From Prolixibacter sp. NT017 (GTDB lineage: Bacteria; Bacteroidota; Bacteroidia; Bacteroidales; Prolixibacteraceae): DNA of 64,000 nt. A program made the position numbers and the translations under genes. Every line of letters starts with the position of its first letter. The stretch's first letter is position 1. Positions 18,277-20,543 of this stretch are shown in pieces. Under the pieces are notes generated by a model that made no database searches, was not told the origin of the DNA, and saw nothing but the letters and a program-made list of their open reading frames with translations. The stretch is taken from contig NZ_BLAV01000001.1 of NCBI RefSeq assembly GCF_009617875.1, forward strand, positions 992,001 to 1,056,000, written 5' to 3'.

Positions 18277-19659
18277 ATGAGAACACGCACATTTTTTTTC
18301 CTGCTTCTTTGTTTGATATCTGCGCCGGCTTTCGCCGGAAATGGTCACTGGCAGAGTCTTTTCAATGGTAACGATTTATCCGGTTGGAAACAGATAAACG
18401 GTACAGCTCCCTTTGAAATAGTTAACGGGGAAATTATCGGAACCACGATTACCGGCTCACCCAACTCCTTTTTAGCTACGCAAAAGAATTATGGCGACTT
18501 TATCCTCGAATACGAAATGAAAATGGATGAAGGCCTGAATTCGGGTGTCCAGATTCGCAGTTTGAGTACGCCGGATTATCAGAATGGCCGCGTACATGGC
18601 TACCAGGTAGAGTGTGATGACTCGGATCGGGCATGGTCAGCTGGTATTTATGACGAGGCCCGTCGTGGCTGGCTCTATCCGATGGAGTATAATCCGAAAG
18701 GAAAAACCGCTTTCAAAAAGGGAGAATGGAACAAATACCGGGTCGAAGCCATTGGGAACACCATCCGGACCTGGTTAAACGGTGTGCCTTGTGCCAATCT
18801 GGTGGATGACATGACTCCGGAAGGTTTTATCGCTTTGCAGGTACATTCCATTGGCGATGATAAGACGCGTGCCGGCAAACAAATTCGCTGGCGGAACATT
18901 CGCATCATGACGGATAACCTGGAAGCGGAACGTGAACCCATGCCTGATGTGCGACAGGTGAGCTACCTGAACAATCAGCTCACTGAATGGGAAAAAGCGC
19001 ATGGCTGGCAATTGCTGTGGGATGGTAAAACCACAGATGGCTGGCGAAGTGCCCGTGGTGAAGATTTTCCTGATAAGGGTTGGTCCATTGCGGATGGAGT
19101 TTTGACAGTTAATGCATCGGATGGAAAAGAATCGGCTAATGGCGGCGATATTATTACGAGCCAACGTTATCGGAACTTCGTGCTGGAAGTGGATTTCAAA
19201 CTTACCGAAGGAGCCAATTCCGGCATCAAGTATTTTGTGCAGACCGGTTTGAATAAAGGGCTGGGGTCATCGATAGGATGTGAATATCAGTTGTTGGACG
19301 ACCAGCGGCATCCCGACGCTAAGCTGGGAGTTGATGGCAACCGGACACTGGCCTCTTTGTACGATTTGATTCCGGCCAATGCTCAGTGTTTTGATCCGGC
19401 CCAGATGGTGAAGCGTTTCAACGGAATTGGTGCCTGGAACCGAGCAAGAATAGAAGTTCACGGTGATACAGTGAAGCATTTCTTAAATGGGGTAAAAGAA
19501 GTAGAATATGTCAGGAATAACCAGATGTGGAATGCGCTGGTCGCCTACAGTAAATACAAAAAATACAAGAACTTCGGGAACTTTCAGGATGGGCATATCC
19601 TGTTGCAGGACCATGGGAACGAGGTACATTTTCGGAATATAAAGATCAAGCCGTTGTAA
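18277..19659 (+). CDS. Exported tandem DUF1080 (3-keto-glycoside hydrolase-like) protein
   Basis: A 460-residue protein with a signal peptide ([20 protein letters not shown]). It has two DUF1080 (3-keto-disaccharide hydrolase, PF06439) domains of concanavalin-like fold. Domain 1 spans about residues 24-213 ([15 protein letters not shown], then [18 protein letters not shown], then WRNIRIMT). Domain 2 spans about 240-459 ([15 protein letters not shown], then [18 protein letters not shown], then [10 protein letters not shown]). Members of this family cleave 3-keto-glycosides made by sugar oxidoreductases. It starts 167 bp after the aldo/keto reductase gene, beyond a terminator, so it probably has its own promoter. 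Its stop touches the ancestral end of the broken SRAP gene on the other strand. Confidence 0.9.
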
Positions 19660-20364
19660 TCAGTTTTTGTTTTCGGACAGGAGTCTCGGGCCTGCAGGAT
19701 GTATCAATCCGGGATCGTCTGCCTGTGGATTTTTAATGGTAGGAGCGATGGGGTAGGCATTCATGTGCTCGGCCGGAAAGGGTTGTAACATGGCCATTAT
19801 TTCGGTTAACGGAGTGGATGGATTGAGTCAGGCTTTCTCTTGTTCATGAAGGAGGATGACCGGCGCCCGATCGCACGGAAGTCTTCGGAGTAATTCATTG
19901 GCGGTTGTGGTGATGATGGCGAATGAATGAATCAGTTCACCAGTTATCTCATCCAGCCAGGTGTCATAGATTCCTGCGAAAGCAAAAGGACGAGCCTTCT
20001 TCCGGAGATAAACCAGAAATGGTTTGCTTAAACCATGTCCCTTAGTTCCCTGGATATAAGCATCGGCTGGAACGAGGCAACGCTGTTGCTGAATGAGGTA
20101 TCGGATGGAAGTGTTAGGTGCAGGCAATTCCAGATCTTTTGCGTCAATATGGCTGACGAATAGGTTTTTGTCTTTTGTGGGAAACGGCACAGAGCCCCAA
20201 ATGTAGTGTAGTAGCGTTTCCGGTTGCTGAGAAATGATGACCGGGGCGTACTTTCCGGGAGCGATGTTGTAGGATGGTGTCCATTGTATATTTTCGGGTA
20301 CGAAAACCTGAAACCGTTTCCGGATAACGCCTGCCTTTTGCACGAAAATATATCGGTCGCACAT
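19660..20364 (-). pseudogene. SRAP-family (YedK/HMCES-like) gene interrupted by an in-frame TGA
   Basis: The intact frame from 20364 gives 178 residues starting MCDRY (Cys2, the DNA-crosslinking position) and ending at TGA 19830-19828. Beyond that stop the same frame stays open for 55 codons to a TGA at 19662-19660. Those codons encode the family's C-terminal region: LNPSTPLTEIMAML, PFPAEHMNAYP, IKNP and LIHPAGPRLL. The full length would be 234 residues, normal for SRAP proteins. The TGA sits where the family has the Trp of a WL pair, so TGG to TGA is the simplest explanation. Motifs seen are SYNIAPG, RCLVPADAYIQGT and PCDRAPVIL. The usual active-site Glu and His are Gln105 and Cys164, so the protein may already be inactive. 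A sequencing error cannot be excluded. Confidence 0.8.
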
Positions 20365-20442
20365 GGTTTGGATTTGAGATGATAATATAAGTTACAAAAA
20401 TTATAAACAGAAGACTATCAGGGAATATGATTCTGGCATTGA

Positions 20443-20473
20443 TTGGAACTTGTTCTGTTTTATGATAATTTTA
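20443..20473 (+). promoter_or_regulatory. Weak candidate promoter for the Gfo/Idh gene
   Basis: TTG at 20443-20445 and TAATTTTA at 20466-20473 are separated by 20 bp. The second box differs from TAnnTTTG at the last position. The ATG follows 70 bp later. Confidence 0.3.
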
Positions 20474-20543
20474 TGAAGCTCATCTCCGGCGATATCATTC
20501 CGGAAACAATACTAACAACCGAATTGTAACTAAACCTGATACA

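Follow-up and report, generated by a model that had tools for sequence, protein, structure and literature searches.

Introduction

The closest described relatives of the gene considered here are YedK of Escherichia coli and the SRAP domain of human HMCES, with which this gene and its nearest homologs have the PF02586 domain and an N-terminal Met-Cys in common; proteins of this kind protect damaged sites in DNA. The second residue of this pair, Cys2, is the crosslinking nucleophile of the family, and YedK additionally has Glu105, Asn75/Arg77, and His160. One biochemical report (PMC9436759) provides a yardstick for most of these residues. Replacement of Glu105 by Gln severely impairs crosslinking: the fast phase that remains is short and slowed at least 2.5-fold, the slow phase is slowed at least 1000-fold, both relative to wild type, and the crosslink shows no exchange within 24 h (PMC9436759). 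In the same report, replacement of His160 by Ala or Gln costs about 10-fold, the effect of Asn75 to Ala is very modest, and the crosslinking rate is 0.09 per min for a bare 15-residue N-terminal peptide versus 19.7 per min for YedK.

We analyzed a stretch of 64,000 nucleotides (hereafter the window) from Prolixibacter sp. NT017 in which, unlike in YedK and HMCES, a SRAP gene is interrupted by an in-frame TGA. We consider it likely that a recent nonsense mutation inactivated the only SRAP gene of this genome, and that the gene had previously encoded a SRAP pseudoenzyme of a Prolixibacter type.

Results and Discussion

The interrupted SRAP gene

The open part of the SRAP frame encodes 178 residues that begin with MCDRY (Table 1) and scores 111.7 bits against PF02586 (cut-off 27.1). 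A stop-tolerant search of the whole genome extended the match to profile positions 1–213 with 132.6 bits and ‘1 TGA’ inside; both the 178-residue part and the read-through thus belong to the SRAP family by sequence, since each scores above the Pfam cut-off. The 55-codon tail searched alone against Pfam returned no match. The stop-tolerant search revealed a single PF02586 match in the genome, which comprises one 5.14-Mb contig that is 99.18% complete; no second SRAP copy that could make this one redundant was found.

Table 1. Positions of the SRAP gene, its parts, and its surroundings in the window.
Feature	Position	Strand	Remarks
SRAP-family gene with one in-frame TGA inside	19660..20364	-	234 codons; final stop at 19660-19662
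ORF actually open (178 aa + stop)	19828..20364	-	PF02586 profile positions 1-176 of 214
In-frame TGA at Trp position	19828..19830	-	from homolog alignment
55 post-stop codons, SRAP C-terminal region	19663..19827	-	omega 0.052 versus P. denitrificans
Codon 164, Cys for catalytic His (His160 of YedK)	19873..19875	-	common to P. denitrificans; coordinate from residue number
Degenerate active-site block, residues 58-112	20029..20193	-	Asn-x-Arg gone, 11 residues deleted, Gln at 105; coordinates from residue numbers
Cys2, family crosslinking nucleophile, kept	20359..20361	-	coordinate calculated
Region upstream of SRAP	20365..20543	-	mostly conserved in NT017, P. denitrificans, and P. bellariivorans
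DUF1080/3-keto-disaccharide hydrolase (PF06439), convergent neighbor	18277..19659	+	

Homologs were sought with the 234-residue read-through protein carrying X at the stop, which yielded 984 matches at E <= 0.001; the analysis covered the 120 matches that were listed. All 234 positions of the query align to intact proteins, and the best homolog is the ortholog of P. denitrificans (P0001), with 91% identity over the full length. Uninterrupted SRAP genes flanked by the same neighbors were identified in P. bellariivorans ATCC BAA-1284 (G001) and P. denitrificans DSM 27267 (G002). Trp occupies the stopped position in both of these congeners and in each of the 120 matches listed. An earlier, sequence-only reading of the window had proposed that a TGA splits a SRAP gene at a conserved Trp and that the next stop touches the convergent DUF1080 gene, and had suggested comparing the read-through product with PF02586 and the locus with that of sister strains. 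Comparison with the profile and with two sister species bears out the proposal: homology runs on for 55 codons past the stop, two sister species have the intact gene with Trp in place, and the second TGA of the frame directly adjoins the 3′ end of the DUF1080 gene.

Loss of active-site residues in the clade

The catalytic Glu105 is replaced by Gln in NT017 and in P0001–P0005, its five nearest homologs among the matches listed. Gln occurs at this position in 6 of 121 alignment rows, which are exactly these six sequences (hereafter the clade), and the NT017 residue is also paired with Glu105 of YedK in the phmmer alignment. A further set of 61 rows, comprising family and order loci and nearest homologs and sharing part of its clade genes, fetched as loci, with the first set, has Gln105 in nine rows, all from this clade, and Glu in the other 52. 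The Asn75-x-Arg77 motif is likewise missing from NT017 and P0001–P0005, with 11 residues deleted nearby, although P0004 has kept an Asn without the Arg. The residues opposite the motif in NT017 are Ser-His-Ile in the MAFFT alignment or Asp-Ala-Lys in that of phmmer, and the motif is found in neither; because the alignment is not unique here, the loss could be milder in the NT017 species than the MAFFT alignment implies. His160 is replaced by Cys in NT017 and P. denitrificans and is His in P0002–P0005 and P. bellariivorans; this column is unreliable for distant rows of the 61-row set, where His can sit one place later, as seen for the structure 2f20. Cys2 is kept in all six clade sequences.

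The full Cys-Asn-Arg-Glu-His set was identified in 102 of the 121 rows, and three further rows are cut at the N-terminus. Ten rows outside of the clade also depart from it, two with Val for Glu105 and eight elsewhere, such that partial loss of the active site is not unique to the clade. In P0024 and P0072, Val replaces the catalytic Glu, and the His160 column holds a residue other than His.

Measured against the residues of active SRAP proteins of the YedK/HMCES type, NT017 therefore has Cys2 and lacks Glu105, Asn75/Arg77, and His160. The proposal of the sequence-only reading that the gene functions in repair of abasic-site DNA-protein crosslinks is for this reason not supported. Since P0001–P0005 share the Glu and Asn-x-Arg losses yet carry no stop, these losses most simply preceded the stop. 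By the standard of the YedK mutants of PMC9436759, the Prolixibacter SRAP should not be a fast, reversible abasic-site crosslinker.

Predicted fold and the truncated product

An AlphaFold2 model of the intact P. denitrificans protein (pLDDT 89.6; pTM 0.89) predicts that this ortholog has the SRAP fold, with weaker stretches at residues 61–70 and 81–90, both within the degenerate block, and at the last four residues. A Foldseek search with this model returned 21 matches at E <= 0.001, all of them structures of YedK, HMCES, or other members of the SRAP superfamily, the assignment of the latter being taken from PMC3765255. The fold predicted for the ortholog is the same as that of YedK and HMCES, with TM-scores normalized by query of 0.72–0.79. 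The nearest solved structure is BT_1218 of Bacteroides thetaiotaomicron (2f20), which is both the best sequence match of the 178-residue part (E = 8.3e-14) and the best fold match of the intact ortholog (E = 1.8e-17). BT_1218 has Glu where the clade has Gln, and it has a His next to the Arg.

It is conceivable that the stop represents an adaptive truncation and that the shortened 178-residue protein is functional, given that it retains Cys2 and most of the PF02586 profile (Table 1). However, the strongly conserved MNAYPI and IKNP segments, to which the final strand of the modeled ortholog belongs, are lost, and no homolog shorter than 232 residues was present among the 120 of 984 matches listed. 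We consider a functional truncation very improbable. Because the last strand and last helices of the modeled fold are missing, the 178-residue product is probably dead.

Selection on the gene and age of the stop

Comparison of NT017 and P. denitrificans by codon alignment yielded an omega of 0.114 over 233 codons, 0.141 before the stop, and 0.052 after it. P. denitrificans and P. bellariivorans, whose protein aligns with a 4-residue gap, yielded 0.126 for the whole gene and 0.160 for the degenerate block. In each of three species pairs, which have branches in common, 2000 neutral simulations produced no case as conservative as the whole gene, and 0 or 1 case as conservative as the block. Six neighboring genes have omega values of 0.027–0.100 between NT017 and P. 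denitrificans. With omega values of 0.11–0.13 among the three species, the SRAP gene is under purifying selection and is constrained a little less than its neighbors; because its omega is somewhat above those of all six, some relaxation before the stop is possible.

In the deeper comparisons, constraint has shifted along the gene. NT017 and P0004 are 66% identical N-terminally, 44% across the block, and 81% C-terminally, and the block is the least conserved part in comparisons with P0003, P0004, and P0005. This is not the case in closer comparisons, where the corresponding values are 91, 93, and 92% with P. denitrificans and 86, 82, and 76% with P. bellariivorans. In the canonical pair P0006 and P0010, the values are 61, 70, and 63%. 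This pattern, albeit in a small sample, would be consistent with an active site that was lost early and a gene that later came under constraint again.

These results bear on whether the clade protein, before the stop arose, still worked as a SRAP through a rearranged active site, in which Cys2 and other residues would crosslink abasic sites at a useful rate and perhaps irreversibly, a scenario that is compatible with a recent stop. Retention of Cys2 throughout the clade and strong selection on the gene favor this scenario, as do the observations that the Glu-to-Gln variant of YedK still reacts, in a fast and a slow phase and without exchange in 24 h, and that even a bare N-terminal peptide crosslinks at 0.09 per min (PMC9436759). 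Nevertheless, the slow phase of that variant is at least 1000-fold below wild type (PMC9436759), and the active-site block is the part least conserved in the deeper, although not the closer, comparisons. We regard a rearranged but useful crosslinker as unlikely, if with a real chance of being correct.

The 55 codons past the stop differ between NT017 and P. denitrificans by 13 synonymous and 3 nonsynonymous changes, the latter confined to codons 229, 230, and 232 of 234, and 2000 neutral simulations yielded no outcome this conservative. Since these codons still appear to be under selection, they fit a young mutation or, equally, an assembly error. According to a Poisson calculation over six rate settings, the stop would be no older than roughly the final quarter of the branch that follows the split of the two species (5% level); this bound is only rough because, in one of the six settings, zero age itself falls just below 5% (0.036). 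As expected of a recent pseudogene, the orthologs at the same locus are intact and no decay is evident past the stop. The suggestion of the sequence-only reading that a single, apparently recent nonsense change is involved is supported by the intact genes of the two sister species and by this post-stop conservation; a strain polymorphism or a sequencing error, which it named alongside, may instead account for the TGA.

Sequence quality and decoding of TGA

The same two observations, intact orthologs in two congeners and a lack of decay beyond the stop, would also be expected if the TGA were an error of base calling or assembly and the organism itself had an intact gene. Against this stand the assembly of the genome as a single 5.14-Mb contig (99.18% complete) and a comparison of 380 kb of the genome (about 7%) with P. 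denitrificans. Among 215 P. denitrificans ORFs with a match of at least 75% identity in this region, three were flagged and SRAP was the sole clear mid-gene stop; of the remaining two, one is a gene with its end 11 codons earlier and one is a 105-residue ORF that is in overlapping pieces. In the reverse direction, 5 of 212 were flagged. Widespread poor sequence quality was hence not seen over the 380 kb compared. In addition, the change at the TGA is a substitution and not an indel, the error type that is typical of long reads. We consider a sequence error quite unlikely. Outside of the window, NT017 encodes a 1038-residue ORF (G000:C1:982021-985137), the P. denitrificans counterpart of which carries one in-frame stop.

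The strong conservation past the stop could also be accounted for if the TGA were decoded, as Trp by read-through or as selenocysteine by recoding, such that the full-length protein is made. However, the position is Trp in 120 of the 120 matches listed, and TGA terminates 6 of the 36 stop-to-stop frames of at least 250 codons in the window, shadow frames included. No tRNA-Sec was detected at the cut-off (47 bits) in any of the four genomes of the genus; weaker matches were present in each, the best with 45 bits. In 14 control genomes, matches at E <= 0.001 were found in all and matches above the cut-off in five. The best tRNA-Sec-like place in the NT017 genome, the one locus checked in this manner, is a tRNA-Ser according to ARAGORN and lies beside a tRNA-Trp with anticodon CCA. 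Selenocysteine or suppressor decoding is unlikely given the lack of a tRNA-Sec at the cut-off and the identification of the best candidate as tRNA-Ser, and we assign only a minimal probability to production of a full-length protein by any decoding of this TGA.

Probable exchange of gene halves and distribution among relatives

In the pairs that were compared, the C-terminal parts of the canonical homologs P0006, P0007, and P0010, which unlike the clade have the complete Cys-Asn-Arg-Glu-His set, are 62–97% identical to those of NT017, P. denitrificans, or another member of the clade. P0006, a metagenomic sequence with a canonical active site, is 94–97% identical in its C-terminal part to P. bellariivorans (L103) and P0002, whereas identity to both is only 40–41% in the block and 62% in the N-terminal part. 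Trees of the N- and C-terminal parts were reconstructed from 26 of the 61 rows, with distant, partial, and duplicate rows left out. In the N-terminal tree, the seven degenerate rows form one group (100/100 support). In the C-terminal tree, P0006 is nested with P0002 and P. bellariivorans (99/97), and the degenerate rows formed one group in 0% of 200 bootstrap trees. Because the halves of P0006 differ in both identity and placement, it is most likely that canonical and degenerate versions of SRAP have swapped halves by recombination within the gene in this lineage, although the P0006 mosaic may instead stem from a chimeric metagenome assembly.

No SRAP gene was found in the third congener (G003), nor was the neighboring oxidoreductase gene. 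Beside its DUF1080 gene (L050 9117-9173), an 18-codon stretch resembles the SRAP C-terminus and ends at the corresponding stop. The protein match is weak (E = 0.24), but DNA similarity continues from DUF1080 to window position 19712, which supports identification of this stub as a SRAP remnant. Accordingly, two of the four genomes of the genus have an intact SRAP gene, one has the gene with a stop, and one has a stub. Since one congener keeps only the stub, loss of SRAP seems to be tolerated. SRAP is also patchy across the family, with matches to P0006 in 77 of 140 genomes, a few of which contain internal stops. Single in-frame stops were observed in the SRAP matches G162:C228, G127:C326, and G064:C79 of relatives; two are TGA and one is TAG.

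Implications for the SRAP family

We envision the following history for the gene. The ancestral gene would have encoded a SRAP-folded protein that retained Cys2 but had Gln in place of Glu105 and no Asn75-x-Arg77 motif, and the ancestral protein of the NT017 species and P. denitrificans would in addition have been without His160. Fast, reversible crosslinking of abasic sites may thereby have been lost, and what remained was probably a non-catalytic protein that bound abasic sites or single-stranded DNA, or a slow crosslinker acting through Cys2. The stop would then have cut off the final strand and helices of the fold, leaving a non-functional product. The decay event itself is ordinary and apparently recent; what appears unusual is the gene, which represents a conserved SRAP lineage without the known active site.

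More tentatively, and with the odds somewhat against it in our estimation, Prolixibacter may have a selected, natural SRAP pseudoenzyme, or a natural ‘locked’ SRAP with the Glu-to-Gln change known from the laboratory, that serves as a cap for abasic or single-stranded DNA; its gene would swap halves with canonical copies by recombination and be dispensable in some strains. Such a protein would have kept Cys2 and the fold and lost reversible acid-base catalysis, and would be either non-catalytic or slow and irreversible.

The stop codon alone is a case of ordinary gene decay, and the clade is more useful. Its intact members are SRAP proteins under selection in which the key inactivating change made in the laboratory (Glu to Gln) occurs naturally, Asn-x-Arg is absent, and Cys2 is kept. 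These proteins also call for caution in annotation, in that family membership alone is insufficient to designate them as abasic-site processing enzymes. Study of the clade could reveal a role for SRAP that is independent of fast, reversible crosslinking.
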